DNA from: Elusimicrobiaceae bacterium
GTDB lineage: Bacteria > Elusimicrobiota > Elusimicrobia > Elusimicrobiales > Elusimicrobiaceae
NCBI GenBank assembly: GCA_016282685.1
Contig: JAEELM010000010.1
Coordinates: 1-54,843 of the forward strand
Reading direction: 5' to 3'
DNA length: 54,843 nt
The notes beneath the pieces were generated by a model that was given only the letters and a program-made list of their open reading frames with translations, was not told where the DNA came from and made no database searches. The position numbers and the translations under genes were made by a program. Positions 4,285 through 52,493 of the stretch are shown here, in pieces; position 1 is the stretch's first letter, and each line of letters begins with the position of its first letter.

Positions 4285-4351
4285 AGAATAGAAAAAAAAT
4301 CCTTTTAATAACAGGGTCAAAAGACCTAGTTGGAAAGGGAAAAAGGGCCTA
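4285..4351 (-). promoter_or_regulatory. Regulon promoter A: TRGGYC-N4-GRCCC element, -10 box and upstream half-site
   Basis: Minus strand: TAGGTCTTTTGACCC (4314-4328), then exactly 23 bp, then the -10 TATTCT (4285-4290). A second half-site TAGGCC lies 23 bp upstream of the first (GGGCCTA on the plus strand, 4345-4351). The same arrangement occurs at six other promoters in the window. Confidence 0.7.
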
Positions 4352-4387
4352 TTGAGCAATTGGGTATAAATAGGAATAAGGAAACAT

Positions 4388-4419
4388 CAAAAACCCCGGG
4401 CAAAGCGCTTTGCCCGGGG
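4388..4419 (-). terminator. Intrinsic terminator of the fmt-rplS operon
   Basis: A perfect GC-rich palindrome (arms 4394-4406 and 4407-4419) followed on the minus strand by TTTTTG. It lies 30 bp after the rplS stop codon. Confidence 0.88.
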
Positions 4420-4448
4420 TATATTCGGAGTTTTGGTTTCCGTTTCGA

Positions 4449-4844
4449 TTATTTCGCCTCTGCGGTGGGTTCTTCGGCAGTTTCTGCAGTGCCTTCTTGC
4501 GGAACTTGTTTTTTGAGTTCTTGTAAGCGGGCAGCTTTACCGGAGAGTTTGGTTAAGTAATTGAGTTTTGCACGGCGTACTTTACCGACTTTGAGTACTT
4601 CAATGCTATCCACGCGGGGGGAGTGGATCGGGAAAATGCGTTCCACACCTACGCCAAAGGATACTTTGCGCACGGTAAAAGTTTCACCAATGCCGGTGCC
4701 TTTACGGGCAATCACAACGCCGTCAAAAGTTTGCAAGCGTTCGTTGTCGCCTTCCACTACTTTTACTTTTACGCGCACGGTGTCGCCGGCTTTAAAAGTA
4801 GGCACATTGGTTTTAAGATTGTGTTTAATTTCGTTGATATTCAT
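4449..4844 (-). CDS. rplS: 50S ribosomal protein L19
   Basis: 131 residues. Component of the large ribosomal subunit at the 30S-50S interface. The core is canonical: [62 protein letters not shown]. The C-terminus extends about 15-20 residues beyond the usual end with a Glu/Ala/Thr-rich acidic tail. It lies 5 bp downstream of trmD and is followed by a strong terminator, closing the operon. Confidence 0.97.
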
Positions 4845-4849
4845 ACGTC

Positions 4850-5572
4850 TTACTTCCTCCGAATCTGTTTTTTGCGTTGGACCTTTTTCACTTTGACTTG
4901 AGAGGCGTTGGCAAGTAAATCGGGCCTAAACTTTTTTGTAATTTTTAAAGACTCTGCGTGTTTCCACGCTTCTATTTCCTTATGGTTACCGTTCAAAAGT
5001 ACTTGCGGTACGCGGCGCCGGCGCCAAACTTCCGGCCGGGTATATTGCGGCGCTTCCAGCAAATTATTTTCAAACGATTCCGACGAGGTCACCCCGTCTT
5101 TTTTAAACGTCCCGGGTTGCAAACGCGTTAATGCGTCTATCATTACGCAGGCGGCTAATTCTCCACCTGTTAAAATGAAATCCCCTAAGGACACTTCTAA
5201 ATCTATTTCCGGGTAAATCCGCGCATCTACTCCTTCATAATGACCGCACACAATGATTAAGTGTTTTTTCTTTGCCAATTTTTTAGCCAACGACTGGCTA
5301 AATACTTGGCCGCGCGGACTGGTCATTATAACGAAAGACGTTTTCTTACGTAGACTTTTAATGGCCTGGTAAAGAGGTTCTGCTTTCAGCAACATTCCCG
5401 GCCCGCCGCCGTAAGGACGGTCGTCAATCGTTTTGTGCTTGTCTTGGGTAAAATCCCTTGGACTAAGCGTACCCAGTTTGATTATCCCCGCTTTGCGCGC
5501 ACGCCCCACGATACTTTGGGAAAGCGCTTGCTCTACTAACGGACCAAAAGCGGTGATAACGTCTATTTTCAT
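4850..5572 (-). CDS. trmD: tRNA (guanine-N1)-methyltransferase TrmD
   Basis: Methylates G37 of tRNAs using S-adenosylmethionine, preventing +1 frameshifting. 240 residues, typical. SPOUT-fold signatures are present: [11 protein letters not shown], the knot region [12 protein letters not shown] (here VCGHYEGVD), and [14 protein letters not shown]. Its ATG overlaps the khpA stop by 1 bp (TAATG). In most bacteria rimM sits between the KH gene and trmD; here it does not. Confidence 0.97.
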
Positions 5573-5802
5573 TAATCTTCCAGCTTTAGGGTAACTTTTT
5601 TATTTTGATTGGAGGCAGCTGCCGTCAAAACCGTGCGAATGGCTTTGATAATACAACCGTCTTTTCCAATCACTTTACCTTTATCGGCGGCATCCACTTT
5701 TGTGGATAAGTAAATTTTATTTTGCTCTATCTTTTCTTCCACGACTACATTATCGGGCGTAGAAGAAAGAGATTTTAATAAGAGCGTGGCAAGTTCTTTC
5801 AT
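5572..5802 (-). CDS. khpA: KH-domain RNA-binding protein KhpA
   Basis: 76-residue single KH-domain protein. The GxxG RNA-binding loop is visible as VIGKDGCIIKAIR, preceded by the YLSTKVDAADKGK strand. KhpA proteins bind many RNAs and are linked to cell-division and envelope regulation in Gram-positives; the role here is unknown. It sits in the conserved place after rpsP (14 bp gap) and is translationally coupled to trmD by a one-base overlap. Confidence 0.93.
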   Translation of the reverse strand: MKELATLLLKSLSSTPDNVVVEEKIEQNKIYLSTKVDAADKGKVIGKDGCIIKAIRTVLTAAASNQNKKVTLKLED

Positions 5803-5816
5803 AACTTTTTATCTGC

Positions 5817-6065
5817 TTATTTCGCGCTGGCTTTTTTGATTAAGCTGGCAACGGTTTGAGAAGGTTTTGCACCTACTTTCAACCAGTATTCTACTCTAGG
5901 CATATTTAATTTTACTTGGTCGGCCGCATTGGGGTTGCTGGGTTGATATTGGCCGAGTACTTCTTTGGCTTCTTTACCTACCGCAGTGGATTTTTCAATC
6001 GCTACCACTCTGTATTGAGCCACACCTTTTTTGCCGACTCTTTGTAATCTAATTGCTACTGCCAT
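5817..6065 (-). CDS. rpsP: 30S ribosomal protein S16
   Basis: 82 residues, normal for S16. Begins MAVAIRLQRVGKKGVAQYRVV, with the family's RLxRxGxKxxPxYRIV pattern slightly changed (Ala-Gln for the usual Pro). The ATG at 6065 is preceded by AAGGAGA, which rules out the longer upstream frame. Binds 16S rRNA in the 5' domain and aids 30S assembly. Confidence 0.96.
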   Translation of the reverse strand: MAVAIRLQRVGKKGVAQYRVVAIEKSTAVGKEAKEVLGQYQPSNPNAADQVKLNMPRVEYWLKVGAKPSQTVASLIKKASAK

Positions 6066-6105
6066 TTTGTTTCTCCTTGTATTGCTTTTGCTTTGCAAAA
6101 GCGGT

Positions 6106-6801
6106 TTAAATATCCGAGGCCGCCTGTCTGATTTGGTTGAGGGCCGTTGCAGGGTCCGCGGCGTTAAAAATCGCACTTCCGGCTACCAATGCGTCTGCCC
6201 CGGCTTTTGCAGCCCGCGCAGCAGTTTGAACATTGATGCCGCCATCTACTTCCAGCCAAATCGCACGGCCGGAACGGGTAATGAGTTGCCTTACTTGCTT
6301 CAGTTGCGTTTCGCTTTGGGGCAGAAAAGCCTGCCCGCCAAAGCCCGGATAAACACTCATTACTAAAATCAAATCCAATTCATTCAAAAACGGAACAATT
6401 CTTTCCGGGGGCGTATCGGGCTTGATGGAAAGGCCTGTTTTTACCCCTAGCTTTTTGATAGCGGTTAATGACTGTTGCACGTCATCTTTGGCTTCTGCGT
6501 GCACGGTCAAAAGATCCGCCCCGGCTTTGGCAAACGGCTCAATAAATAATAACGGATGCTCTACCATCAGGTGGACATCCAATGCCAAGCGGGTTTTTCC
6601 GTTTAAACTTTTCACAATAGACGGACCGAAACTTAAATTCGGTACAAAATGCCCGTCCATAATATCCACATGCAGCCAATCGGCTCCTGCATTTTCTACC
6701 GTTTGTACACTGGTACCCAGTGAAAACAAATCAGCAGACAGGATAGATGGCGCAACAGATATTTTACCATTTACTGCGGGCATTTTGGAAGTTTTTTTCA
6801 T
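6106..6801 (-). CDS. rpe: Ribulose-phosphate 3-epimerase
   Basis: Interconverts ribulose-5-phosphate and xylulose-5-phosphate in the pentose phosphate pathway. 231 residues with a short N-terminal extension. Motifs: APSILSADLFSLG, WLHVDIMDGHFVPNLSFGP (metal-binding HxD), LDVHLMVEHP, LILVMSVYPGFGGQAF and EVDGGIN near the C-terminus. The start overlaps the PASTA gene stop (ATGA, 4 bp); an internal ATG at 6783 is an alternative start. Confidence 0.96.
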   Translation of the reverse strand: MKKTSKMPAVNGKISVAPSILSADLFSLGTSVQTVENAGADWLHVDIMDGHFVPNLSFGPSIVKSLNGKTRLALDVHLMVEHPLLFIEPFAKAGADLLTVHAEAKDDVQQSLTAIKKLGVKTGLSIKPDTPPERIVPFLNELDLILVMSVYPGFGGQAFLPQSETQLKQVRQLITRSGRAIWLEVDGGINVQTAARAAKAGADALVAGSAIFNAADPATALNQIRQAASDI

Positions 6802-7802
6802 AGAACTTCCCGTTCCCGTACCAAAATACCGTCTGAAAATACGCGAATAGTTCCGCGCCCCGCATAGGGAATTTCCATATCAATTTTGGAGCCGGGTTGC
6901 TTCATTTCGTTAAATACTTCATTTTCACCGGAAGCATCTTCCACCGTTACGCGCACGCGGCTGGCATTCTTTCCTTGCGGCATTTCGTAATGCAAGTGAT
7001 ATGATTTTTCGTTATCGGCCGTTTCGCGCCGGCTGACGGTAACTTCCACATTGCTTTTGGGAGCAATCTGCGTGTCTGCTGCCGGAGATTGGGCTGCTAC
7101 TGTTCCGTTGGGGAACACGGAGGAAGGATCTTCCTTGATGATTAAATTGATGTCATGGTGACTGGCCCAAAGGGTAGCTTCGGCCAATTTTTTACTTTTG
7201 AAATTGGGAACTAATACTACACTGGCCGGCGGGGCTCCGTTGGATAATACCAACGACACATTGTCGCCTTTTTGCACCATGTTGTCTGCTTTTGGATTTT
7301 GAGAAATGATGACTCCTTTTTCGTATGTAAGCGAATAGGCATTGTCCACCCGATCTACATTCAAGCCGGCTTGGCGAATGGCTAATTGACCGTCACGCAA
7401 AGCGGAACCCACTACGTTGGGTACAAATACCATTTCGTCCCCTTGGCTGATCCATACGCGGATTACACGCCCTTCCCGTACGGTAGAACCGCCGGAAGGA
7501 ATTTGACGAAGCACGGACCCCGGGGCAATATCGCGGGCAAATTCTACGCCGGCTTGTTTCAAGGCTAAATTTTGTTGGGCCAACAACCCCAACGCTTGAG
7601 AGAGAGGTTTTTGGGTCAAATCGGGCACGGTAACTTCTTTGCGGGTGTGAATGAGGGCCCCCAACGCCCAATCAGCCGATAGAACGATTAATGCAATAAA
7701 AAATAAAACAACTAGTCCCACGATACCCCAGCGGGTAAGCGGAGAAGATTTCTTTTTTTTCTTTTTCAAAAATTCATCAAAATTTTCGTTTGTATTTGCC
7801 AT
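6798..7802 (-). CDS. Membrane-anchored PASTA-domain protein without a kinase domain
   Basis: 334 residues. A Lys-rich cytosolic N-terminus (FLKKKKKKSS) is followed by one membrane segment at about 25-50 (GIVGLVVLFFIALIVLS), then roughly three extracytoplasmic PASTA repeats, each starting with a V-P-x(L/V/F) strand (VPDLTQKPLSQAL, VPNVVGSALRDGQ, VPNFKSKKLAEA) and holding turns such as GSTVREG. PASTA domains bind peptidoglycan fragments or beta-lactams in Ser/Thr kinases and PBPs; neither catalytic domain is present here. The C-terminal approx. 70 residues are not PASTA and look beta-rich. It lies 38 bp after the TPM gene and overlaps rpe. Confidence 0.88.
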   Translation of the reverse strand: MANTNENFDEFLKKKKKKSSPLTRWGIVGLVVLFFIALIVLSADWALGALIHTRKEVTVPDLTQKPLSQALGLLAQQNLALKQAGVEFARDIAPGSVLRQIPSGGSTVREGRVIRVWISQGDEMVFVPNVVGSALRDGQLAIRQAGLNVDRVDNAYSLTYEKGVIISQNPKADNMVQKGDNVSLVLSNGAPPASVVLVPNFKSKKLAEATLWASHHDINLIIKEDPSSVFPNGTVAAQSPAADTQIAPKSNVEVTVSRRETADNEKSYHLHYEMPQGKNASRVRVTVEDASGENEVFNEMKQPGSKIDMEIPYAGRGTIRVFSDGILVREREVL

Positions 7803-18522: not shown

Positions 18523-19506
18523 TTAGGGCTCCAAGCGAAGACGGTATGGGTTGATGCGGAAGCTCTGATCCGGCATGAGGGAAAGGCGTACCCAAATGGG
18601 GTTTCCATCGGGCCCTTTGACCAATGCGGACATTTCCACAATGTTTTCAGCCGGGATATCGTGTGCTACTTCAAAATTTGCATCTGTGCCTATGGTGCGT
18701 TCGTTGCGAACGGTGACCAGTACCGGGATTTTCCCGTCTTCAAAAGAGTTTCTTCTGGCATAGAAAGCTGCCACTTGCGGGTTGGGAGTCAACCACGTTA
18801 CTCGTGACTCCTCAATGGCATTTTTCATCATGGAACGGGTAACCGGTGCGGCGCTGGAAAGATTGGTTGTGCGCAGAAGGATGCCTAAATCCCCGGCGTT
18901 TTTCCCCAAGTCCTGCAAGCGCAAGCCGTTTCTTAAAATATTGCGGATGGCCGGTTCGTCAAGTCCTAAACCGCGTACACCGTAGATTTTATTGCCACCT
19001 TTCGGAAGGGGAATCTCCGGAGAGGGACCGGCAAAACCGTCTAGCGTAAGCCCTTTTAATGTAGGAACGGTCATTTCTCCTTCTACTACGGAAGACCAGG
19101 GACCGCCGGCATTGAGGCGCGAACCGCCTTTTTCAATTGTTGTGCGTAAAGCCTGTGTGCGCGGCATGTGCATGATACGGGTGTAAAAATCAGTAGTAAG
19201 GCCCGGCATGGAACGGTGAATGGTTGCTGAAAGGGAAGACGGCGTTGTGGCGGTAATAGTGCTTGCCGGTACGGTTGTTTGGGGAAGAGAGGCAACGCGC
19301 AGTGCTTCTGCGGTCGGTAAAGGGCCTCCTGTGAAACCCCGCCAAGCTGTCCGGGCCGCTGCGTCCACAACGGCAGGGGCGATCTCGGCAGTGCTCTTAA
19401 ATGCGGCTTCGCTCGCTTTTTCTACAAGCGTCTGCGCCTGTACCAAAACGGAAAATCCGGTCAGTAACCCTAGCAAGACAATGTGTTTTAGAAAATTAGT
19501 TTTCAT
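18523..19506 (-). CDS. Exported protein with ADP-ribosyltransferase-like C-terminal region
   Basis: 327 residues. Signal peptide (IVLLGLLTGFSVLVQAQ), an Ala-rich stretch (EKASEAAFKSTAEIAPAVV), a Thr/Ser/Pro-rich linker, then a globular C-terminus. The region at about 174-296 resembles toxin-type ADP-ribosyltransferases: IYGVRGLGL with a candidate catalytic Arg178, a following GLRLQDLG, TWLTPNPQVAAFYARR in the position of the STS-type strand, and IPAENIVEMSALV near the place of the catalytic Glu. This is a motif-level match only, and the fold is not proven. The ATG at 19506 has a strong Shine-Dalgarno (GGGAGGAAG). It carries regulon promoter B. Confidence 0.82.
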   Translation of the reverse strand: MKTNFLKHIVLLGLLTGFSVLVQAQTLVEKASEAAFKSTAEIAPAVVDAAARTAWRGFTGGPLPTAEALRVASLPQTTVPASTITATTPSSLSATIHRSMPGLTTDFYTRIMHMPRTQALRTTIEKGGSRLNAGGPWSSVVEGEMTVPTLKGLTLDGFAGPSPEIPLPKGGNKIYGVRGLGLDEPAIRNILRNGLRLQDLGKNAGDLGILLRTTNLSSAAPVTRSMMKNAIEESRVTWLTPNPQVAAFYARRNSFEDGKIPVLVTVRNERTIGTDANFEVAHDIPAENIVEMSALVKGPDGNPIWVRLSLMPDQSFRINPYRLRLEP

Positions 19507-19527: not shown

Positions 19528-19593
19528 AGTATAGGGAAAAAAGGTGTTTTTTCCATGGGTCAAAGGGCCCATTTTAATAAGAAAAAAGGCCTA
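19528..19593 (-). promoter_or_regulatory. Regulon promoter B: element, -10 box and upstream half-site
   Basis: Minus strand TGGGCCCTTTGACCC (19557-19571), exactly 23 bp, then TATACT (19528-19533). Upstream half-site TAGGCC (19588-19593) begins 22 bp before the element. Expected transcript start about 15 bp upstream of the ATG. Confidence 0.72.
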
Positions 19594-29064: not shown

Positions 29065-30336
29065 ATGCAACTACCACAAGAATTTATTACGGATGCGTCT
29101 GCACTGTTTGGCCCGCAACGTTGGCAATGTTTTTTGCAAGCGTTGGAGGAAGAACCTGCTACCAGTATTCGTTTTAATCCCTGGAAATACGGCGGAGAAC
29201 AGATTTTTTCGCAAGTTACCTCCATTCCCTGGTGTAAGGGGGGATATTGGTTGGAGGAACGGCCCCGTTTTACGTTGGATCCTTTGTTTCACGCGGGGGT
29301 ATATTATGTGCAAGAGGCCGGTTCTTTATTTTTAGACACTATTTTACGCCAATATGTAAAGGCCCCGGTTTTGGCGTTAGATTTGTGTGCCGCACCGGGT
29401 GGCAAATCTACTTTGATGCGGGCCGCCTTGCCGGGAAATTCTATGTTGGTCAGTAATGAACCGGACCGCCGGCGCGCCAACATTCTCTTGGAAAATATGC
29501 TTAAGCAAGGACATCCTGATGTATTGGTTACACATAACTATGCACGGGATTTTGCTAAAACCAATTGGACTTTTGACGTGATTTTAACAGACGTTCCTTG
29601 CTCGGGGGAAGGAATGTTTCGCCGGGACATGGGAGCCGTGAAGGAATGGAGTTTGCAAAACGTGTATTCCTGCCAAAAACGCCAACGCCAAATTCTGCAA
29701 GATATATGGCCTTGTTTGCGCGAGGGGGGACTGCTCATTTATAGTACTTGTACGTTTAATGTGCATGAAAATGAAGAGAATGTACGTTTTATTGCAGAGC
29801 AATTAGGGGCGGATGTGTTGCCGGTTGATATCGAGCCGCAATGGCATATTACGGGATCTTTGCTGAAAGGGTGGACAGAACCGGTATATCGTTTTATCCC
29901 GGGGATTACGCGCAGCGAAGGACTCTTTATGGCGGTGCTCCGCAAAAAAGGAACGCCGAGTGCCCACACCCTTTTACCGGGATCGGCACGACGGTATGCT
30001 AAAACGCATTTGTTGATTCATTTATTATCAGACGGACTGGCTGCTCCCGAACAGAAGGGAAAAGAACAAATTCCTTCGGCTGCACAAGCACTTTCAGTGG
30101 AGGGGGCACCGGTAACAGACAAATACCCGCGGGTAGAACTTCCATTAGAGCAGGCTCGGAAGTATTTGCACCGCGAATCATTCGCACTGCCTTCCGGTAC
30201 GCCCAAGGGATTTGTGATAGTAACTTACGCCGGATACGCGCTTGGATTTATGAAAAATTTAGGCGATCGGGCCAATAACCTGTATCCTAAAAATTGGGCC
30301 ATCCGCTCATTGACGGACACTTCTCTATTCACCTAA
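29065..30336 (+). CDS. rsmF: rRNA (cytosine-C5)-methyltransferase, RsmF/NOL1-NOP2-Sun family
   Basis: 423 residues. SAM-dependent m5C methylation of rRNA. N-terminal SIRFNPWK segment, SAM motif LALDLCAAPGGKST, LVSNEPDRRRANIL, catalytic DVPCSGEGMFRRD (motif IV Cys) and IYSTCTFNVHENE (motif VI Cys). A C-terminal extension of about 120 residues with FALPSGTPKGFVIVTYAGYALGFMK resembles the RsmF C-terminal RNA-binding part. The end overlaps the convergent exported gene by 12 bp. Confidence 0.93.
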   Translation: MQLPQEFITDASALFGPQRWQCFLQALEEEPATSIRFNPWKYGGEQIFSQVTSIPWCKGGYWLEERPRFTLDPLFHAGVYYVQEAGSLFLDTILRQYVKAPVLALDLCAAPGGKSTLMRAALPGNSMLVSNEPDRRRANILLENMLKQGHPDVLVTHNYARDFAKTNWTFDVILTDVPCSGEGMFRRDMGAVKEWSLQNVYSCQKRQRQILQDIWPCLREGGLLIYSTCTFNVHENEENVRFIAEQLGADVLPVDIEPQWHITGSLLKGWTEPVYRFIPGITRSEGLFMAVLRKKGTPSAHTLLPGSARRYAKTHLLIHLLSDGLAAPEQKGKEQIPSAAQALSVEGAPVTDKYPRVELPLEQARKYLHRESFALPSGTPKGFVIVTYAGYALGFMKNLGDRANNLYPKNWAIRSLTDTSLFT

Positions 30337-31176
30337 GAAATAAAAATCCGGCAAATAAATAATACGCTTGGAATTTGTCTCTCTTTCATATTCATACGCG
30401 CCGTTGGGTCCTTTTTGGGTGGCGTTGAACAGGACTCTTGTTCCGAACGGGGATACCCCTTTATTAGGAAATGTGATTTGAAGAGTGCGTTTCCACCCTT
30501 TCGGTTTTCCGTCTTTATCCCAAATTACACGTTGTTCTTCAAGAATGCTGCTGGCTTTATCACACAACGCTGATAAGTTTGGCACGCCGGCCCATCTCTG
30601 TGCGATTTTTGCCCTGGCACGGTTCCAGTTTTTATCGATCGCAAGATTATATTTGGCGTGCTGAGATGGACTATCAGGGAAGGGATGCCCCGGGAAATAG
30701 TTCGTTCTTGATGGGGATAGATAATTGTAAGATTGCGTTTCATCATCAAATGTTCTTTCAAATTCATACGTGTGTGTGTTATTGCTTTCCCGCGTTTGGA
30801 TATACAATTTCCACACCCAGCGTGCCATGCCGACGGAATAATATTCTACTTCCGCGTCTTTAATGCGGAAGGAAGAATCTTGATTATATTTAGAAAGGGC
30901 CCATTTTTCACACCCGGGCCACTCACTGCACATTTGCTTGACGCGGGGATTGGCATAGACAGGTAGTTGAATTTTATTGCGTTGCGCATTTGCCCGGCGG
31001 TAGATGGCAGAATTTTGTTTGCCGTGATTAAGCCAATCCAAATCGCCGGTTTCCTCACGACACAAAATATAAGGAGAAAAATTTTTGGGTTGTCCCTTTG
31101 TTTTTTGTTGGGCATAGGTGGGGGATACACACACACCTACCAACACAATACTTAATAGCAATGCTATGCGTTTCAT
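30325..31176 (-). CDS. Exported protein of unknown function (CEKWA-FPGHPF family, member 1)
   Basis: 283 residues with signal peptide (MKRIALLLSIVLVGVCVSPTYAQ). No known domain recognised. It is a paralogue of the gene pair at 43043-44726: all three share YAN-x-RV-x-x-MC followed by GCEKWA (or EEWA), KYxxDSSFRIxDxExxY, a YxQTxExxxxHxYxF strand, FPGHPF and a C-terminal W-x-RTL strand. Two invariant Cys could form a disulfide. The start at 31176 has GAGG upstream and is preferred to the longer frame. Carries regulon promoter C2. Confidence 0.85.
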   Translation of the reverse strand: MKRIALLLSIVLVGVCVSPTYAQQKTKGQPKNFSPYILCREETGDLDWLNHGKQNSAIYRRANAQRNKIQLPVYANPRVKQMCSEWPGCEKWALSKYNQDSSFRIKDAEVEYYSVGMARWVWKLYIQTRESNNTHTYEFERTFDDETQSYNYLSPSRTNYFPGHPFPDSPSQHAKYNLAIDKNWNRARAKIAQRWAGVPNLSALCDKASSILEEQRVIWDKDGKPKGWKRTLQITFPNKGVSPFGTRVLFNATQKGPNGAYEYERETNSKRIIYLPDFYFLGE

Positions 31177-31206: not shown

Positions 31207-31251
31207 ATTCTATCTATTCAACTTTTTGTTGTACAAGGGCCATTGGACCCA
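31207..31251 (-). promoter_or_regulatory. Regulon promoter C2 (minus arm of the divergent region)
   Basis: Minus strand TGGGTCCAATGGCCC (31237-31251), 24 bp, then TAGAAT (31207-31212), about 30 bp before the ATG. Confidence 0.7.
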
Positions 31252-31260
31252 AAAAACAAG

Positions 31261-31326
31261 TAGGCCTTTTAATTGCTCTTTTTGGGTCTTTGGGCCCTTG
31301 TTTTAAGATGTTAAACCTTCTATGAT
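31261..31326 (+). promoter_or_regulatory. Regulon promoter C1 (plus arm of the divergent region)
   Basis: TGGGTCTTTGGGCCC (31283-31297), exactly 23 bp, then TATGAT (31321-31326). Half-site TAGGCC (31261-31266) begins 22 bp upstream of the element and lies between the two divergent elements. Confidence 0.72.
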
Positions 31327-31342: not shown

Positions 31343-32758
31343 ATGAGGAACTTTTTTCTATTTTGTTTTATCTTCTTTAGCGTATCAAGTGTTTCGGCGC
31401 AAACATCCAAGAATATTATCAGGGGTGTAACACGGTCGACGGAAGAATTATCCACCCGTGTAGGCGGATTAGCCGAACAAGCATCCAGGGGATTGCTTCC
31501 CCAGGCGGGAAATGTTGTTTTGTCAAAGGGAGTTCAAACGGCTGTTGAGACGGGAACTTCCCAACCGGTTTTGCAACCGGGTGTTTCTTCTTCCCCTTTT
31601 GTTCCTCAGGTTTCTCCCCGTGTTTCGGCTCCCGCCTCTTTGCCTAAATTCTCTACAGCTCCGATTCCCTCAACGGTGTCGGTGGCAAGCGTTGAGCGTG
31701 CCGCTGCTGCGGAAATGAAACATAAGCCGGTCGTCGGCGAAAATCAATTCCCGGGTGTAGTTAAAAATTTTGGCAGAAGCGTGTTGTTTTCTCCCCGTGA
31801 GATTTGGGATCGGATTGGGCGGAAATTTCACAAAGGAGGGTTCACGGTTACGGTAGTTAAGGGAAATTATCAGGGAAAAGAAGAAATTGGCGGAATCGTG
31901 CAAACGCATTTGTTGCCGACTAATTCAGTGGAAGAACACGTGAGTCTACCGAAAAAATTTGAGGTAAACGTTTTGTTGCCTGACGGGACAACGAAGACAG
32001 GTTTTGGGGAAGTGGTTCAAATTTCTCCCCGGAGTATGTTAGATATTAGTTATGTTAAATTCGATAAATCCATAGAGCCCTTTTTGGAACCGTTGGAAAT
32101 TTCCGCAGAAATAGAGGAGGGCGAGAAATTGCTTTCCTACGGGTATGCAAAAACAAAACCTGTCAGCACTACCAGTACGGTAATCAAAACAGGTTTTATT
32201 TACGGGAAAGTGAATGGTATTGATTTTGAAGGGGGCCGTGAAGGGTATTGCAGCAGCCCTTGGATTAATAAACAAGGCAAAGTAGTAATGTTCCACAGCG
32301 GTTCCGGCAGTTATGGTACACGTGCCAGTTTTGTTGACAAATTGGTGGAAGCTTATCACAACGGCGGAAAAGCCGAATATGATTTGATGCTTAACGAAGA
32401 AAAAATTGCAAAACTGAATATAGATGAATATATTTCTGCCTTCGGTTTGGCGGATGAAAATCACGATATTATATTTTTATCCGATGGCTTGGGAAGTGGT
32501 TGGGATGTGTTCAAAAAATATTCGGAATCTGCTATCCGTACGGAAATAATTCTGCATCCGGAGGCACGCTATTTGGTGCTGGACGCCCGCAAAGCTTTAT
32601 GGAAAAAAACAGAGGGAGGAACGGAAGTACTGGTGGAAGACCGTACCCCCGGTTCGGAAGCGGAAAACCACTTGCGGGAAATATGGTACGATTTGAAACT
32701 GCATGAACCGGAAATGGAACTGGAAGAAAATTCCATTCTAATGAGCTCTCTTCTCTAA
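31343..32758 (+). CDS. Exported protein with chymotrypsin-fold protease-like region
   Basis: 471 residues. Signal peptide (LFCFIFFSVSSVSAQ), Val/Pro/Ser-rich linker to about 135, then a beta-rich region at about 165-325 that resembles trypsin-like proteases of the V8/DegP type: GGIVQTHLLP with candidate His189, SMLDISYVKF with candidate Asp234, and GYCSSPWINKQGKVVMFHSG with candidate nucleophile Ser304 or Cys303 in the place of GxSGxP. Spacing fits the family, but the usual Gly after Ser is replaced. Residues 330-471 are unrecognised. Start at 31343 because the ATG at 31322 lies inside the -10 box. Confidence 0.83.
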   Translation: MRNFFLFCFIFFSVSSVSAQTSKNIIRGVTRSTEELSTRVGGLAEQASRGLLPQAGNVVLSKGVQTAVETGTSQPVLQPGVSSSPFVPQVSPRVSAPASLPKFSTAPIPSTVSVASVERAAAAEMKHKPVVGENQFPGVVKNFGRSVLFSPREIWDRIGRKFHKGGFTVTVVKGNYQGKEEIGGIVQTHLLPTNSVEEHVSLPKKFEVNVLLPDGTTKTGFGEVVQISPRSMLDISYVKFDKSIEPFLEPLEISAEIEEGEKLLSYGYAKTKPVSTTSTVIKTGFIYGKVNGIDFEGGREGYCSSPWINKQGKVVMFHSGSGSYGTRASFVDKLVEAYHNGGKAEYDLMLNEEKIAKLNIDEYISAFGLADENHDIIFLSDGLGSGWDVFKKYSESAIRTEIILHPEARYLVLDARKALWKKTEGGTEVLVEDRTPGSEAENHLREIWYDLKLHEPEMELEENSILMSSLL

Positions 32759-40016: not shown

Positions 40017-40108
40017 TAGGCCTTTTGGTCCTAAAGGAGTTAGGTCTAAAATAAGGGAAAAAATAGGTCCAAAGGCCCTGTCTTTACTGCTACTTGATTA
40101 TCTAAAAT
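40017..40108 (+). promoter_or_regulatory. Regulon promoter D with an array of half-sites
   Basis: TAGGTCCAAAGGCCC (40064-40078), 24 bp, then TAAAAT (40103-40108). Two further half-sites lie upstream at TAGGTC (40041-40046) and TAGGCC (40017-40022), spaced 23 and 24 bp start to start, i.e. about two helical turns. Confidence 0.73.
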
Positions 40109-40146
40109 ATTAAACAGAAGTATCAAAAATTACTGGAGAAATGAGA

Positions 40147-41535
40147 ATGAAAATAAAAAATTATTTGTTGGGGGCTTTATTGGTGGGGGCGGTTGTTCCT
40201 TCCGCTTTTGCCCAAGTGCCTCAAGTAGTAAAAGGGGCCGTAACTACAGGGGTTACGGACGGTTTGGTTGAAAATATAGGTCGTGCAGCCGTACGGCAAG
40301 TTGAGTTAACCGCCGCTGAAAGAGCGTTGTTACCGGTGGATGGCACCGCTACACATAAAGTGTTTTATCATGACAATAAAACGGCAACCATAGAGACGCG
40401 CACACCTTATCAGCAAGTCACTGTTGATAATATACAACTCTCCAACCTGGCTTCGCAAAATGCGAAATGGTTTTGGAGCAATAACTTTGCCAAAGAACTA
40501 TCCCCGAAGGTATTTCCTAATTTGGCAGGGGAAAATGTTTTCTACATGCAACAAGCCGTTAAACGCGCGGCCAGAAATTTTGATAAATGGGTCGCCCGTG
40601 AAACCGAGTTTTTGAAATACCTCCAACGGGACACCTATCAGGAAGTTCCGTGGTATAAGTACTTGCCATCGGAACCGATGGATTTCTTCTTTATAGGGGA
40701 AGGCATGTGGGATAAGGAAGTTTATGCCCATGTCTTCAAACCCATTATTAAAGAACTGCAAAGACAACAACCCAACCGCAAAATTATTTTGGCTACGGGA
40801 TATGTTCCCAGTCTGTATGAAAGAGTAGGGGATCAAAGCACCAGTACTGCCCGAATGATACGCACCAAAGAAGAATTACAAAGACTCTGGGGTTACTCGA
40901 TTAGTTCCAGGGAAGATATTTTGCGGGATGTATTGGACGAAGGAATTGAAATTGCAGGGGTGGAACCTGAAACCTGGTTGCGAGAACAATACCTCAAGGA
41001 ACGAAGCGAAAAGATGGGGGTGGACACTGAATTGGTGGGAGATTGGACGAACTTCATGTCCAGTGAAGTAACCATCCGTACTCGCCAATATATGTGGACG
41101 GAACTTTTGAACGAATTGAAAGCTGCCAACCCGGATGCACTGATTGTTGTGCACGGGCCGGTCGCTCTGTTTAATAAAAATACCAACTACGCCGTTCCCA
41201 GTGAAGTAAAAGGAAAAAGCTTTACGATGCAGGTGACGTCGACTCCTTCCACGTTGTATATTTCTCCTGAATTTTACGAAACGGTCGTTCGGAGTTCCCC
41301 TATGAAAGGATACGACGAGGAAATGGGTGTGAAAGAAATCTTCTCTTTTAAGCCCGATTTTGCCAATCTTTCCGACAAAAGCCAAGAGATGTTTAGAAGT
41401 GCGTTAGGAGGAGATGTGGTGGTAATATTCGACGGCGCAAGTGAAAGAACGAGACAAAGAGTTGCCAAAATTCAACGATGGCAACAAGAAAGAATAGAGC
41501 ATGGATTGTCGGGAAAAATCCAGATCAAAGAATAG
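40147..41535 (+). CDS. Exported protein of unknown function
   Basis: 462 residues. Signal peptide (MKIKNYLLGALLVGAVVPSAFAQ) followed by a Val/Ala/Gly-rich stretch (VVKGAVTTGVTDGLVENIGR) like that in the exported protein at 50951-52354. The centre has FFFIGEGMWDKEVYAHVFKPIIKELQ and a later LIVVHGPVALFNKN; the pair faintly recalls the ChaN/EreA hydrolase-like arrangement (GE-x-H then GxxH), but the key His is not clear, so no function is called. The ATG at 40147 has better spacing from GGAGA than the ATG at 40141. Carries regulon promoter D. Confidence 0.83.
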   Translation: MKIKNYLLGALLVGAVVPSAFAQVPQVVKGAVTTGVTDGLVENIGRAAVRQVELTAAERALLPVDGTATHKVFYHDNKTATIETRTPYQQVTVDNIQLSNLASQNAKWFWSNNFAKELSPKVFPNLAGENVFYMQQAVKRAARNFDKWVARETEFLKYLQRDTYQEVPWYKYLPSEPMDFFFIGEGMWDKEVYAHVFKPIIKELQRQQPNRKIILATGYVPSLYERVGDQSTSTARMIRTKEELQRLWGYSISSREDILRDVLDEGIEIAGVEPETWLREQYLKERSEKMGVDTELVGDWTNFMSSEVTIRTRQYMWTELLNELKAANPDALIVVHGPVALFNKNTNYAVPSEVKGKSFTMQVTSTPSTLYISPEFYETVVRSSPMKGYDEEMGVKEIFSFKPDFANLSDKSQEMFRSALGGDVVVIFDGASERTRQRVAKIQRWQQERIEHGLSGKIQIKE

Positions 41536-42901: not shown

Positions 42902-42958
42902 TATTGTAGCAACAGCCTGCACCTGCAAAACTTTTCTTAAGAAGTCCTATTTCCTTTC

Positions 42959-43003
42959 TAGGCCCAAAGGCCCTTGTGAAACAAAATGCAAAACCGATAG
43001 AAT
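42959..43003 (+). promoter_or_regulatory. Regulon promoter E
   Basis: TAGGCCCAAAGGCCC (42959-42973), 24 bp, then TAGAAT (42998-43003), about 40 bp before the GTG start. It serves the three-gene unit to 46065. Confidence 0.73.
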
Positions 43004-43042: not shown

Positions 43043-43852
43043 GTGAAAAAAATAGTTATTCTATTGGCAGCTGTGCTTATTGCAACAACAGCGTTACCAT
43101 CACACGCGCAAAAAATAGATCAAAGAGGTATCTCCTGGTTTAATGTCCCTGTCGCAAGTACGCCCGACTCTCCAAAAGAGCCTGCTTATATTTGGCATCC
43201 TTCGCCCAATGATCTAAAACCCGTCATCGAGAAAAAAGCGGCCAAACAAAACATTACTCTTTATGCCAATAATCGTGTTATGCGCATGTGCCGGGAATTT
43301 CGCGGATGCGAAAAATGGGCTCGCGGCAAATACGCGCTCGATTCCTCTTTCCGCATTACGGATGTGGAGATAACGTATTGGTACGGTTACCCAAACCAAT
43401 GGGAATGGGCTTACGCCCTCTATGTGCAAACATGGGAAAACGGACATGTACACGCTTACAAACTTACAAAGCCAACCCTGCAAGAGGTTTTTCCTTCCTG
43501 CGAAGAGATTAACAAATTCCCGGGGCATCCATTTTCCGATGAACGTTCTCAACATGCCAAATACCCCTCGAAAAAAGAAATTTACAAACGCTGGAGCTAC
43601 CCGCTCGCTCTTATATATCCCAAACTAAAAAAAATGGGTGTCATTCTGAGCGAAAAAATTGCGGAAGAACAGATAGTTGTGTGGGAAAATGATGAGCCTA
43701 TCTGGAAACTGCGTCTTTATGCTGAGTTCGTCGTCAATGATGATAACAATTTAAGAACAGTAGAAAAACGAATCGTTCGGGAAGCAAAACAAGAATACCC
43801 CGGTGGGCCTTTTTCTCTCTCTCAGGGAAAATGGAAACATTATATTTTGTAA
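43043..43852 (+). CDS. Exported protein of unknown function (CEKWA-FPGHPF family, member 2)
   Basis: 269 residues, GTG start with Shine-Dalgarno GAGGAGG. Signal peptide (MKKIVILLAAVLIATTALPSHAQ with M for GTG). Shares YANNRVMRMCRE-x-x-GCEKWARGKYALDSSFRI, HxYKL, FPGHPF and SQHAKYPSKKEIYKRW with members 1 and 3. No known domain. First gene of the regulon E operon; 28 bp before the next. Confidence 0.86.
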   Translation: MKKIVILLAAVLIATTALPSHAQKIDQRGISWFNVPVASTPDSPKEPAYIWHPSPNDLKPVIEKKAAKQNITLYANNRVMRMCREFRGCEKWARGKYALDSSFRITDVEITYWYGYPNQWEWAYALYVQTWENGHVHAYKLTKPTLQEVFPSCEEINKFPGHPFSDERSQHAKYPSKKEIYKRWSYPLALIYPKLKKMGVILSEKIAEEQIVVWENDEPIWKLRLYAEFVVNDDNNLRTVEKRIVREAKQEYPGGPFSLSQGKWKHYIL

Positions 43853-43880
43853 TTAATTTTATTAAAAAGGAGTAAACTCA

Positions 43881-44726
43881 ATGAAGAAATTAATGATGTT
43901 GACGATAGTAGCACTTATTGCAACGGTTGCGCTACCCTCGAATGCTCAAAAAATAGATGAGGAATGGAACAACCGGTTTACAGACCCTATTGTAAATCCG
44001 ATTGTCAAGCCGCAGAAAAAAGACAATCAAATATACAACCTGACTATTAATAAAGATAATGTGAAAGCGTTAGCCAAACACCAGGTAGCCAAACAAAAAA
44101 TCGTTCTTTATGCTAACAACCGCGTCATGAAAATGTGCCGCGAGTGGGAAGGATGTGAAGAATGGGCCAGAGATAAATATGCATTGGATACCTCTTTCCG
44201 TATTACAGATATAGAGGTAACTTATCACTTTTATCCGCAAAAATGGCACCCTGGAAAATGGTTCTACGAACTCTATGTGCAGACATGGGAAAACGGTCAC
44301 GCCCGCGCGTATAAATTTCAAAAACAAGAAGGGAAAAAAGAGGTTCCCTCTTGTGTAGAGATTGGTAAATTCCCGGGGCATCCGTTAAATGATCCTTCTC
44401 AAAGTGTCAAACGTCCCTCAACAAAAAATGAACTCTACAAACGTTGGAGCAGTGTTGTTGATAAACAAATATTGCCTAAAATGATTTTGAATGAGAACAC
44501 CGTCTTATCGAAGTTCGGAATGGCAGAAGAACAGACAGTTGTGTGGGAAGGTGATAAACCTATTTGGAAGCGCACCCTTTATGCTGCCGTTACCGTTTAT
44601 GATAACAATCTTTGGTGGAATAAAAGCGGGAAATTTGTCATAGAAATAAAACAAGAATATCCGAACGGCCCTTTTATTTACTCACAAGGGAAATGGAAAG
44701 AAGGCATTTTGGCCGATTATGAATAA
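43881..44726 (+). CDS. Exported protein of unknown function (CEKWA-FPGHPF family, member 3)
   Basis: 281 residues, signal peptide (MKKLMMLTIVALIATVALPSNAQ) almost identical in style to member 2, indicating tandem duplication. Conserved: LYANNRVMKMCREWEGCEEWARDKY, DTSFRITDIEVTY, LYVQTWENGHARAYKF, FPGHPLNDPSQSVKRPS, YKRW, EEQTVVWEGDKPIWKRTLY. Shine-Dalgarno AAGGAG. It overlaps the next gene by 8 bp. Confidence 0.86.
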   Translation: MKKLMMLTIVALIATVALPSNAQKIDEEWNNRFTDPIVNPIVKPQKKDNQIYNLTINKDNVKALAKHQVAKQKIVLYANNRVMKMCREWEGCEEWARDKYALDTSFRITDIEVTYHFYPQKWHPGKWFYELYVQTWENGHARAYKFQKQEGKKEVPSCVEIGKFPGHPLNDPSQSVKRPSTKNELYKRWSSVVDKQILPKMILNENTVLSKFGMAEEQTVVWEGDKPIWKRTLYAAVTVYDNNLWWNKSGKFVIEIKQEYPNGPFIYSQGKWKEGILADYE

Positions 44727-46065
44727 AAAATTAATGCGGCAGACGGGTAGTGCGCTTGTTGCATTCCTGTTTTTACCTGCTATTAGTTTTGCACAAGGCA
44801 AACTGGTTGCTGGGAGCGCCCGGCAACTGGCGGAGAGGACTGTTCCCGAAATGGCAGATGTAATGATCCCCGCCACGTCGGAAATTCCCACTCGTTTAAC
44901 CAAAAGTAGCATGCCGGGGAAAATTGTTTCTAATCCTGCAGTTTCCCCTGTTACTTACGGGGCTTCACTGGGGGTCAACAAGTATATGGAAGCGGTTGCT
45001 CCGATAATTCCTTCTGCTTCGGTAGGAGTAAAAGCGCTCCCATCAAAGCCCTATGCGCCGTCGGTTTCTTCTTTGAAAAGAGAGATTGCCGCACTTTCCC
45101 CGGTTGCTGCGGCGGATGCTCTTTTCCAAAAAAAGGAAAAATCCCCGAAGAAGATTTTTGAAGTTTATTTTATTGATTTGCCGAACCTTTTCTTTCAACC
45201 TTTTGATAAGCCTGTTGCGATGCGTCAGGAACAGGTGGAAGAAGCGGACAAATTTTACAAACAATTTTTAAAAGGCCGCAACATATACGGCAAATTTTTA
45301 GGTGGTAATTATTACTTTACTACTTTAGCGGATTCACACATTAAATGGGCCGAAGTATTGTATGCATTTACCGGATTAAGTTTGTTAGGGCAACCCGGGG
45401 CAGGGGATGCGATTGTAGATGCGGCTCTGCGTGCCCCCTCAGGTCGCCAGCCATTTAGCGATTATATCGCCACTCATGCTTTGCTGCTCTTGGAAGATTG
45501 GCCTGCGTTGCAGCGGTTTATCAACGTGCGTTCGGTGGCCGGATACGGTGCGTTTGTGGAACTGCGGGGATATCTGGCCAATGTTGTTCCCGATGCGCCC
45601 ATTTCTTTTCCTAAAAGGATTATCAACGAAGAGTTTCGCCCGTTCCATAGGGTGTATCATTATCCCACCGTAGAGGAACAACTAAAACTCATGGATAGCT
45701 GCTGGGAGGAGTTGGAGCAATTTGCGCATTATATACGCGGGGAAAAAGACGAAGAATACGTTTTGTACAAACACTATCCTCTTACCTCTTTTATAACGGG
45801 TAAGCGCCGTGAGTTTGAGATAAGTGAAGTGGCGGATGAATATAAAAGAGGAAAAGTTTTTGTAGAAGCTAACCTGAAATATGGTGGGTTTACAGGGTTG
45901 ATGGACAACTTTGAAACCTACGGAGTGCAAGAAGAGGACCTTATTGAAAAAAACAACAACGCTTTCTTCAAATGCATTTCGTATGATGCGGGCATTACCG
46001 CCAACATGGCATGTATTCGCGAAAAATTACACCGTCCTATCATATACACCCCCGAACAAAAATAA
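44719..46065 (+). CDS. Exported protein of unknown function
   Basis: 448 residues. Signal peptide ending ISFAQ, an Ala/Thr/Pro-rich segment (LVAGSARQLAERTVPEMADV) and a mainly helical body from about 145 (FEVYFIDLPNLFFQPF, WEELEQFAHYIRGEKDEEY). Cys appear only near the C-terminus (KCISYD, MACIREK). No family recognised. Overlaps the preceding gene by 8 bp (no separate promoter), so it is under regulon promoter E. Confidence 0.84.
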   Translation: MNKKLMRQTGSALVAFLFLPAISFAQGKLVAGSARQLAERTVPEMADVMIPATSEIPTRLTKSSMPGKIVSNPAVSPVTYGASLGVNKYMEAVAPIIPSASVGVKALPSKPYAPSVSSLKREIAALSPVAAADALFQKKEKSPKKIFEVYFIDLPNLFFQPFDKPVAMRQEQVEEADKFYKQFLKGRNIYGKFLGGNYYFTTLADSHIKWAEVLYAFTGLSLLGQPGAGDAIVDAALRAPSGRQPFSDYIATHALLLLEDWPALQRFINVRSVAGYGAFVELRGYLANVVPDAPISFPKRIINEEFRPFHRVYHYPTVEEQLKLMDSCWEELEQFAHYIRGEKDEEYVLYKHYPLTSFITGKRREFEISEVADEYKRGKVFVEANLKYGGFTGLMDNFETYGVQEEDLIEKNNNAFFKCISYDAGITANMACIREKLHRPIIYTPEQK

Positions 46066-49916: not shown

Positions 49917-49931
49917 AAAAGGCCAAAAGAT

Positions 49932-49962
49932 AAAAACCGCCCCTTGTTTGGGGCGGTTTTTT
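49932..49962. terminator. Bidirectional intrinsic terminator
   Basis: Stem CCGCCCC/GGGGCGG (49937-49943, 49950-49956) with A- and T-runs on both sides, between guaC and the convergent thioesterase gene. Confidence 0.93.
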
Positions 49963-49968
49963 ATAAGT

Positions 49969-50709
49969 TTAGATCCATTCGCATTTTATCAAACACAAAT
50001 CTTCTTGCGTTTGTGCGTGGCTGACGGCGTGCAAAGTGGTGTGATTATCTAATTTTTGCACTTTGCTGATCAGTTGCTCGCCGCATTTGATTTCTTTTTT
50101 GAAAATGATATCTATGTTTTTAAGTTTCTTTTCGTGTTTCCACTCATAAGGTAGCGGTTCGAGTGCCCACACAATGTAATTGCCGTTGTTGGCATGCATA
50201 TTGACATCAATATCGTTGTAACGCACTTTAAACGTTTCTTCGTAATCGGTTTGTGTAAGGGGAAAAATTTTGCCAAATTTAAGGTCTCCTTCTCTGGGGG
50301 TAAACTTGGGCATATTTTCGTTCCCGCCGATTACTTTTTCCACATGTGCGATTTCCATTGTTTCGGCATTCAAAAGCGCCCACACGCTAAATGCACGACC
50401 GCATAGTTTGCCGTCTGTGTACATTTCAAATTGACGGTACGCAAACATCCGGTTGTAGCCGCGCGGCTCGGTTTTGATGGTAAGTGGTTTGCCGTGTATG
50501 GGATAATTGGTAAATTCAATGCGGTATTTCAAGAGCACCCACATTAGTTTCTGAGGATAAATGGCCGAGTAGCCAAAGCCTAATTTTTCGGCACTTTCTG
50601 CCGCCAAATCTTGGAAAAAGTTAAGCAAAGAGAACGGTTTTAAATTATTATTACAGTCACTGTCCGAATAGCGAATATGTATCGTTTTTTCTAATGTTAA
50701 ATCTTTCAT
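49969..50709 (-). CDS. Acyl-ACP thioesterase (double hotdog, FatA/FatB family)
   Basis: 246 residues. Hydrolyses acyl-ACP to free fatty acid and holo-ACP. First hotdog: IRYSDSDCNNNLKPFSLLNFFQDLAAESAEKLG, MWVLLKYRIEFTNYP. Second hotdog with the catalytic Asp-x-N-x-H arrangement in VRYNDIDVNMHANNGNYIVWALEPLP. Start has Shine-Dalgarno AAGGAGG. A TAGGTC half-site lies upstream (50749-50754) but without the rest of the regulon element. Confidence 0.92.
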   Translation of the reverse strand: MKDLTLEKTIHIRYSDSDCNNNLKPFSLLNFFQDLAAESAEKLGFGYSAIYPQKLMWVLLKYRIEFTNYPIHGKPLTIKTEPRGYNRMFAYRQFEMYTDGKLCGRAFSVWALLNAETMEIAHVEKVIGGNENMPKFTPREGDLKFGKIFPLTQTDYEETFKVRYNDIDVNMHANNGNYIVWALEPLPYEWKHEKKLKNIDIIFKKEIKCGEQLISKVQKLDNHTTLHAVSHAQTQEDLCLIKCEWI

Positions 50710-50870
50710 AATTCCTCCTTAACTACGTATAGTGTAGCAAAAATAATAGACCTATTTGAAAGGGAGGGAAAAACCGGTAAGGAATTTAGGAAGAAATGAA
50801 AAAAGAGACCAGGAGAAAAATATTTTAGATCTTCTCCCAAGTTATAAGTTTGATGGTTTAACGCAGCATG

Positions 50871-50893
50871 AAAAATCTCCGCGTTGCGGAGAT
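50871..50893 (-). terminator. Intrinsic terminator of the receiver-like exported gene
   Basis: Stem ATCTCCGC/GCGGAGAT (50875-50882, 50886-50893), loop GTT; minus strand continues TTTTC. Confidence 0.85.
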
Positions 50894-50950
50894 CTTTCGT
50901 GAGTAGTATCCTGGTTACAGATGGTAGAAAACCACAGCAATCAGTTGGGT

Positions 50951-52354
50951 TTATTTTTTTCTCCACTTATTCCAATAGAAATTTATAATTGTGTCATCTG
51001 TATGCCTACGATAAGCTACACAGTCTTCCCACATCTTTAAAGTCCCTTCGATACCGGCGTCTACACTAAGTTTCGCAAACTCTTTAAGGTCAGTACCGGG
51101 CTCTTTCGTAGGAGCCGATAATATCAAAATCCCTCCGTTGCCACTAAATGTAAGTTCATGGAGCAACCGTGAATAGGGGTTGCGGATGATTGCATACTGA
51201 TGTTTGGGAGGGTAAAAATCTCCAACCACAACGTCATATGAATAATCTCTTTCCTTAAGAAACTCCTGAACGGTAAAGCTGCGGATTTCCCATTTCCGCC
51301 GCGATTTTTCAATGTCTCTTTTCATTTCTTTATATACATTTTTATCATCATGGACAACAGCTATTCGCAAATTTTTTGGAGCATTTTCGCGGTCTTTTGA
51401 AGAAAGATACCAAGAGTAAAAAGAGTCCGGTTTGGCTGGATTTGGCTTCAGTATCGGTTGAGGCAATTGACAAGGAATTTTTCCCTCCACAAATTTCATA
51501 AAATAGTATTCAACTTGTTGTAAATAGCGTGTTTTTTGAATCAATTCCCAAGGCCGCATTCCCATAGTTTCATCCAAAATTTGGATTCTTTTTCTTAAAA
51601 GATTCGCTTTTTCCCGTACGGTATCAATTGTTCTTTGATCCATTTTTTGCCCGAGCGATTTTCTCTCCATTAAAGATTTTACGTGTTCATAGAAAGATTG
51701 AATCTCATTGAAGGTAGCTCGGTAAACGGCAACATCTTCCCAATATGCTTTTGCGTCTGCCACCGCCTCCGGACGTTTAAGTATGAGATCCCAACGATTG
51801 GGATATCTTTTGTTTATGTAACTCATATCGGCGAATTGATAATCCGTGCGTTGATACTCAATCCCTTTTTTCATATGTTTCATTTGTTCAAGGGCCTCTA
51901 AGAGTTGGAGATGTCTTATCTCTGCATGGGCTGCGCGTTGTATAGCTGCAAGACGGCCGGGAGCATCATCGTGAGATTCAAAATTTTTCGTCACGACTTC
52001 TTTAACTTCCGTAATGGTCCTTGTCTGCGGCAGAGCAGTTTGGTTCTTAATAAATTCCGGAGCTGATGGAATGAGTACTTCTTTTTTCACTTCTACAGGA
52101 GTAACGGTAACACGCTCTGTTATCGTGGGAGGATTAGTCAAAAGTTCCGGGAAGGATGCATTGGTAAGCATTGGAACCGTTCGTAAAGCCGGAAACGTAA
52201 CCCCGTTGATTACAGTCCGCCCCAAGGCATCTACCATCCCGTTCCCTACAGGCTTTAGTGCCGTTTGGGCCAAAGGGACAACTGCCCCTCCTTGGGCCCA
52301 AGCGGGATGTACCATCCCCAGAACAAGAGCTACTAAAAACATTTTTTTATTCAT
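50951..52354 (-). CDS. Exported protein with a C-terminal receiver-like domain
   Basis: 467 residues. Signal peptide (MNKKMFLVALVLGMVHPAWAQ), Val/Ala-rich segment (VVPLAQTALKPVGNGMVDAL), a coiled or helical middle (about 125-300), then residues 328-455 resembling a two-component receiver domain: IAVVHDDK (Asp336, Asp337), YDVVVGDFYPP (Asp379, candidate phosphoacceptor), ILILSAP (Ser413) and GTLKMW (Lys440), with spacing close to CheY. Receiver domains are cytosolic; an exported one is unexpected, so it is either a non-phosphorylated structural copy or not truly exported. Carries regulon promoter F. Shine-Dalgarno AGGAGGG. Confidence 0.85.
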   Translation of the reverse strand: MNKKMFLVALVLGMVHPAWAQGGAVVPLAQTALKPVGNGMVDALGRTVINGVTFPALRTVPMLTNASFPELLTNPPTITERVTVTPVEVKKEVLIPSAPEFIKNQTALPQTRTITEVKEVVTKNFESHDDAPGRLAAIQRAAHAEIRHLQLLEALEQMKHMKKGIEYQRTDYQFADMSYINKRYPNRWDLILKRPEAVADAKAYWEDVAVYRATFNEIQSFYEHVKSLMERKSLGQKMDQRTIDTVREKANLLRKRIQILDETMGMRPWELIQKTRYLQQVEYYFMKFVEGKIPCQLPQPILKPNPAKPDSFYSWYLSSKDRENAPKNLRIAVVHDDKNVYKEMKRDIEKSRRKWEIRSFTVQEFLKERDYSYDVVVGDFYPPKHQYAIIRNPYSRLLHELTFSGNGGILILSAPTKEPGTDLKEFAKLSVDAGIEGTLKMWEDCVAYRRHTDDTIINFYWNKWRKK

Positions 52355-52387
52355 AGATACAAACCCTCCTACTTCTTGCGTATTTAT

Positions 52388-52493
52388 AGTCTAAGAAACT
52401 ACTTTGCTTAATACCAGGGTCTTAATACCTAAAAAAGAAAGAAATAAGACCTAAATGTTTTTGGGTCTTATTTCCCATTTTTTCTAGGTCTTA
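52388..52493 (-). promoter_or_regulatory. Regulon promoter F with an array of half-sites
   Basis: Minus strand TAGGTATTAAGACCC (52417-52431, one mismatch to consensus), exactly 23 bp, then TAGACT (52388-52393). Upstream: TAGGTC (52448-52453, 22 bp away), then two TAAGACC copies 23 bp apart ending by 52493. Confidence 0.68.

Follow-up and report, generated by a model that had tools for sequence, protein, structure and literature searches.

Operators built from two half-sites separated by 4 nucleotides (nt) are known for regulators such as DevR and ComA, and they resemble the subject of this report, the promoter element TRGGYC-N4-GRCCC in a stretch of 54,843 nt from an Elusimicrobiaceae bacterium (assembly GCA_016282685.1, contig JAEELM010000010.1; the whole stretch is referred to as the window). 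The DevR box, GGGAC-N4-GTCCC, has a 5-4-5 layout like that of the element. The consensus of GerE of Bacillus subtilis, a sporulation factor without a receiver domain, is RWWTRGGYNNYY, in which TRGGY is contained. At DevR-controlled promoters, the start-proximal site is reported to overlap the -35 region, and adjacent sites are bound cooperatively (passages of PMC3029386). For ComA, two hexamers with a 4-nt spacer are reported, n = 4 being optimal (passages of PMC4797271).

The window is contig 17 of its source genome (1.42 megabases, 91% complete, 49 contigs). A preliminary description had proposed that seven promoters of exported-protein genes in the window share the element at a fixed distance from the -10 hexamer, and all seven sequences lie where it placed them. 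The match to TRGGYC-N4-GRCCC was exact at six of the seven sites; at 52417-52431 (TAGGTA), the pattern that had been taken as common to all holds with one mismatch. TANNNT follows at 23 base pairs (bp) (sites 4314, 19557, 31283, and 52417) or 24 bp (31237, 40064, and 42959), and a product with a signal peptide is encoded behind the element at all seven sites, as had been claimed. With the pattern relaxed to TRGGYM-N4-GRCCC, the window gave 8 matches, two of which (19556 and 19557) are one place read on both strands, compared with 0.39 on average and at most 3 in shuffled sequence. By a crude rule, 23 of the 52 called window genes look exported, and 16 of these 23 have no element directly before them. 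The promoter of 1868-3073 had been counted among housekeeping promoters without the element; the element is indeed absent there, but the product begins with a signal peptide.

The proposed genome-wide scan gave 49 exact matches in the source genome, three places being counted on both strands, compared with 3 for the reversed pattern. The 43 matches that face a gene are the promoter sites considered here, and the one-mismatch window site at 52417 is outside the 43. The other six were set aside: reverse readings of overlapping palindromes in L010, L020, and L027; two matches next to one that was better placed (L001, minus strand, and L004:1500); and L004:2862, because no open reading frame (ORF) met the target rule before the locus end. 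(The working labels L, G, f, and g with a number denote locus stretches, genomes, family groups, and genus groups, respectively; f1, f2, f5, f7, and f8 lie within the class.) The target ORF was the first ATG or GTG opening a long frame, chosen blind to signal peptides.

TANNNT starts 23 or 24 bp past the element in 33 of the 43 promoters and 22 to 25 bp past it in 36, whereas at offsets 0 to 20 and 30 to 59 the mean was 1.04 per offset (n = 43). The earlier remark that a good -35 is missing was borne out, as TTGACA followed the element at 0 of 43 sites in the source genome, though the columns just after GRCCC read T-(T/G)-G-T (37 of 49 rows, those with a -10 at 22 to 25 bp). If taken as a -35, this tetramer stands 17 to 18 bp from the -10. 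An upstream half-site was present in 40 of 43 promoters, either direct at 22 to 24 bp (31 occurrences) or inverted at 13 to 15 bp (12 occurrences), compared with 1.09 on average and at most 6 for shuffled upstream sequence. A second one stood one step farther upstream in 21 of 43 (direct, 43 to 49 bp; inverted, 35 to 39 bp). Exact half-sites occurred 63 times upstream, and downstream in 1 of the 43 promoters only (L038). In six genes (L001, L018, L026, L036, L043, and L044), the ATG lies exactly 12 nt past the first T of the -10. Their transcripts look like leaderless messages, and an ATG where transcription should begin gives independent support for the -10. Relative to the start point so inferred, the element is a hexamer inverted repeat with a 4-bp spacer at the class II position, as in a regulon of the NarL/FixJ type. 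Sequence alone could hardly make it more certain that the element is a genuine cis-regulatory module serving a set of exported-protein genes.

A Sec-type signal peptide was recognized at the N terminus of the product for 42 of the 43 targets by eye and for 41 by script, so the expected association with signal-peptide genes holds genome-wide. The sole target without one is a GT2 glycosyltransferase (L014:1663-2415); in the other target missed by the script (L038), the signal peptide is present from an internal methionine. The script uses a simple home-made rule that pilins pass too (at least those of L105 and L129). In the window and 17 other source-genome stretches, it called 21 of 23 products exported where an element lay no more than 150 nt upstream of the gene and 42 of 123 where none did (Fisher P = 2.6e-7), the 123 background genes being a non-random sample from the window and from stretches picked around sites or regulators. 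As many genes of the exported type (the 42 of 123) have no element, the element singles out only some of the exported proteins.

Among the 43 targets, some of them cut by the locus end, matches at E values up to 0.01 were found to 11 Pfam and 18 NCBIfam families with one member each, and at least 32 targets had no Pfam match at this level. The Pfam matches seen were trypsin, TraB/ChaN, glycosyltransferase, MFS, receiver, and a few weaker ones. Several targets form small paralogous families. The consensus of one such exported family, the window protein 40141-41535 with members in L037, L018, L034, and L045, holds G-E-x-H, which we take to be reminiscent of the TraB/ChaN (Tiki) superfamily; PF01963 was matched by one of the 43 targets, and the window protein gave no PF01963 match. 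For one target family with three members, the AlphaFold model had a mean predicted local distance difference test score of 54.8.

Conservation was followed in 198 genomes drawn from the phylum, the source genome included. A genome was called enriched when its sites numbered 10 or more and were at least double its own control, the count of the reversed pattern, which climbs with GC content. The source genome apart, 47 of the 88 genomes with an orthologue of B, a response regulator described below, were enriched. They comprised 30 of the 36 other members of the genus, 2 of 2 in g3, 1 of 10 in g2, 0 of 1 in g4, and 0 of 2 in g5-6, and by family 2 of 17 in f2, 1 of 3 in f5, 11 of 16 in f7, and 0 of 1 in f8. 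None of the 6 class members that lack a B orthologue was enriched, nor was any of the 103 genomes outside the class (44 sites in total compared with 159 controls). The element thus recurred in related genomes, which had been proposed for scanning, while the -10 spacing was only partly kept in other families.

In G034 (g3, a second genus), 30 of 31 sites were read; the -10 stood at 23 or 24 bp in 22 of the 30, and a signal peptide was present in 23 of 26 sites with an ORF. In G013 (g2), signal peptides followed 3 of 3 sites, one product being pilin-like and its site without a -10. At L099 and L111 of this genome, the element is directly followed by TTGAC, a near-consensus -35, unlike in the source genus. 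Ten stretches each were taken from G152 (f2) and G197 (f7), the sites, with AT-rich cores, being picked by eye and reverse readings included. G152 had a signal peptide at 4 of 8 sites with an ORF and an upstream half-site (relaxed match) at 7 of 11 sites; in G197, the counts were 10 of 12 and 7 of 12. At some f7 sites (e.g., L160), another complete dyad stands 24 bp upstream. At L151 (G152) and similar f2 and f7 loci, the exact element is in some cases found farther upstream, with a degenerate copy closer to the -10. When five genomes were scanned with the 16-bp pattern at up to one mismatch, G128 gave 1 place compared with 5 for its control, G013 gave 12 compared with 10, G003 gave 27 compared with 14, G134 gave 32 compared with 134, and G102 gave 10 compared with 32, so that only G003 clearly exceeded its control; exact sites with AT cores are present in G013, G003, and G134. 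These comparisons indicate that the element and its upstream half-sites reach across the class, with the exact promoter spacing established only for the source genus and g3.

We propose, with modest confidence that lies somewhat above an even chance, that the element is the proximal operator of a global class II activator, most likely the NarL/FixJ-type protein B, with dimers in tandem upstream. A dimer would bind the 16-bp dyad TRGGYC-N4-GRCCYA centered near -42.5, right against the weak -35, and would recruit the main sigma-70-type RNA polymerase to the TANNNT -10. A second dimer would sit about 22 to 25 bp farther upstream and, at about half of the promoters, a third at about 46 bp, mostly on single half-sites. 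The regulon would comprise at least 43 exported proteins (those of 42 of the 43 counted sites and of the one-mismatch window site), and B would receive its phosphate from either or both of the histidine kinases encoded in its operon. That the element is an activator site is likely because of the missing consensus -35, the fixed class II position, and the auxiliary half-sites upstream. The activator-site proposal of the preliminary description gains support from the genome-wide excess over the control, the fixed spacing in 33 of 43 promoters, and the signal peptides of 42 of 43 products; the symmetry of the dyad, the phasing of the half-sites upstream, and a candidate regulator had escaped it. 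An activator of the NarL/FixJ type is probable, and B is our best single guess.

The source genome encodes two complete receiver-GerE proteins, A and B, and a third GerE match. The gene for B (L077:1479-2180, minus strand) shares an operon with two histidine kinases; the region L077:1-8000 also encodes a protein that matches HAMP weakly and another that looks exported and has no Pfam match. In 9 of the 11 stretches examined from relatives, a kinase, a receiver-kinase hybrid, and B are encoded one after another; B stands alone in L086, and a second copy lies near a contig end in L087. Orthologues of B at least 60% identical occur across f1, f2, f5, f7, and f8 (in G108 on a partial stretch only). 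In the genome_contigs database, the two closest orthologues, 87% and 85% identical, belong to an Elusimicrobiaceae assembly obtained from the rumen of roe deer and to an assembly of an uncultured member of the Elusimicrobiales, and the next, with at most 44% identity, belong to other phyla; by these nearest named relatives, the source genome falls within or close to the Elusimicrobiaceae.

The recognition helix of B reads SVKT(V/I)KNHLN in 17 sequences from 16 genomes (G013 alone representing g2, and G034 being outside this set) and carries KTVKN, as DevR does in the alignment. Lys179, Lys182, and Asn183 of DosR/DevR are reported to contact bases (a passage of PMC4082495). The helix of G128, SINTVKNHIN, is the only one among the 17 B-bearing genomes read in which the first lysine is replaced by asparagine, and the changed lysine aligns with Lys179 of DosR. 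G128, the one genome by which its genus is represented, is also the only one of the 88 genomes with B that has 0 exact sites. The lysine change together with the absence of exact sites is suggestive of the B helix reading the element, in a single genome whose base composition may contribute. More tentatively, at clearly less than an even chance, an ancient two-component regulator may be the master switch of the private secretome of the lineage across the class, the operator and the DNA-contacting helix being nearly fixed and the exported targets, most of which belong to no recognizable family, turning over. If so, joining the regulon would define a new exported protein.

Several observations weigh against B as the activator. 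The enrichment threshold was not reached by 41 of the 88 B-bearing genomes, including 15 of 17 in f2, 9 of 10 in g2, and both in g5-6, and the co-occurrence of B and sites is weak evidence because B follows phylogeny. A Tad-like protein is among the neighbors of B in 8 of the 11 relative stretches, so B could serve pili instead. The element was not above chance in the B operon (L077). A -10 at 23 or 24 bp was found in only 1 of 11 picked sites in G152 and 2 of 12 in G197; a degenerate copy farther downstream with a fitting -10 added 3 in each (reversed-pattern control, 0 and 0). Among unselected loci of G152, G197, G098, and G094, many of which have GC-rich cores, a signal peptide followed only 5 of the 14 sites that had an ORF. 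The regulator survey of the source genome covered the GerE, CRP, LytTR, AraC, and LysR types only. Separately, autoregulation of B was considered and rejected, as the element is not above chance in either L077 or L168.

The poorly kept spacing at the f2 and f7 sites read lowered our confidence in B and in the master-switch reading and raised that in a rival, namely, a class II activator site bound by response regulator A or by another helix-turn-helix protein, since enrichment in these families may concern another regulator. We regard this as a serious possibility, if clearly below an even chance. A is conserved within f1 at 56 to 83% identity (47% in G130), and most regulator families lie outside the survey. 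Elsewhere, however, A reaches at most 47%, and in f7, where the best A-like match is 46%, 11 of 16 genomes are enriched and B is present at 60 to 71%. LytTR (PF04397), AraC (PF12833), and LysR (PF00126) types gave 0 matches in the source genome, as far as it is complete (91%). Dyads of 16 bp near -41.5 are typical of CRP/FNR; a regulator of this type was set aside, as the genome gave one weak HTH_Crp_2 match (E = 9.9e-5), which is not among the matches listed over the 27-bit cutoff and by its E value should fall under it. Were the protein a repressor, it would block polymerase from its position against the -35, which the dyad abuts. This is unlikely, as the lack of TTGACA in all 43 promoters is what would be expected of activator dependence and the exact extra half-sites lie almost entirely upstream. 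A sigma-54 or other alternative sigma promoter with the element as its core is very improbable: the GG and the inner spacing are superficially like -24/-12, and the gene for an extracytoplasmic function (ECF) sigma factor (L020:796-1401, minus strand) is divergent to one element promoter, but the TANNNT position in 33 of 43 promoters and the six ATGs 12 nt after the -10 indirectly disfavor both sigma-54, which would place the start about 12 bp past the GC of its -12 element, and an ECF sigma factor. Elusimicrobium minutum, which is not the source genome, is named as being without sigma-54 in a passage of PMC3162934. A hairpin acting as an RNA element or terminator is hardly credible; on paper the sequence folds into a 5-bp stem and a tetraloop, but the element lies about 35 bp ahead of the inferred start and would not be transcribed from its own promoter. 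In addition, element positions 5 and 12 vary independently, the C-A combination that a stem would avoid occurring in 4 of 43 (Fisher P = 0.73), and an Rfam search of the window gave one tRNA only.

The promoters of the window follow this design with variations upstream. On the minus strand, element TAGGTC-TTTT-GACCC (4314-4328) has an upstream half-site TAGGCC (4346-4351) starting 23 bp ahead and a -10 TATTCT (4285-4290) 23 bp past it. The gene for the exported protein (3145-4278; 377 amino acids, MKIKQTLFLISVFF..YAQ; no Pfam match) has its ATG 12 nt past the first T of the -10. Element TGGGCC-CTTT-GACCC (19557-19571, minus) has a half-site TAGGCC at 22 bp (19588-19593), a -10 TATACT 23 bp past it (19528-19533), and a gene for an exported protein of 327 amino acids without a Pfam match (18523-19506). 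In region 31207-31326, two element promoters diverge, and a central half-site TAGGCC/GGCCTA (31261-31266) fits the upstream position of both. The minus-strand one has element TGGGTC-CAAT-GGCCC (31237-31251), a -10 TAGAAT 24 bp past it (31207-31212), and a gene for an exported protein of 283 amino acids (30325-31176); the plus-strand one has element TGGGTC-TTTG-GGCCC (31283-31297), a -10 TATGAT at 23 bp (31321-31326), and a gene for one of 471 amino acids (31343-32758). Neither product has a Pfam match.

Also on the plus strand, element TAGGTC-CAAA-GGCCC (40064-40078) is preceded by a half-site TAGGTC at 23 bp (40041-40046) and, 47 bp upstream, by a third copy with one mismatch, TAGGCC-TTTT-GGTCC (40017-40031). 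Its -10 is TAAAAT at 24 bp (40103-40108), and the exported protein (40141-41535) has 464 amino acids, or 462 if the start is at 40147. Element TAGGCC-CAAA-GGCCC (42959-42973, plus) has a weak, inexact reverse half-site AGTCCT (42943-42948, plus), a -10 TAGAAT 24 bp past it (42998-43003), and a gene for an exported protein of 269 amino acids (43043-43852). Three successive genes flagged as exported follow this one element (43043-46065), the next two at 43881-44726 and 44719-46065. The one-mismatch element TAGGTA-TTAA-GACCC (52417-52431, minus) has a half-site TAGGTC at 22 bp (52448-52453), a -10 TAGACT at 23 bp (52388-52393), and a gene for an exported protein of 467 amino acids without a significant Pfam match (50951-52354).

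A little-studied phylum thus gains a predicted global regulon whose sequence rules are exact enough for members to be recognized in the genus and its near relatives. Dozens of exported proteins without a known function would be tied to one signal, and a candidate regulator can be named. Promoter and leaderless-start rules are suggested for Elusimicrobiaceae, for which no promoter description was found in the open-access literature searched; nor was a description of the element, which had been called undescribed. The kind of mechanism is already known; the novelty lies in what the regulon contains and how far it extends. As reported for DevR/DosR, a NarL-type regulator of mycobacteria, its promoters are like the element promoters in having a proximal site at the -35 and adjacent secondary sites; they differ in that the half-site here is GGGYC, the phylum is another one, and almost all targets are exported proteins. 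ComA of B. subtilis is likewise reported to have a hexamer inverted repeat with a 4-nt spacer and more recognition elements nearby. The ComA hexamer, however, is TTGCGG, and its extra elements form a direct repeat downstream of the dyad, whereas those of the element described here lie upstream.

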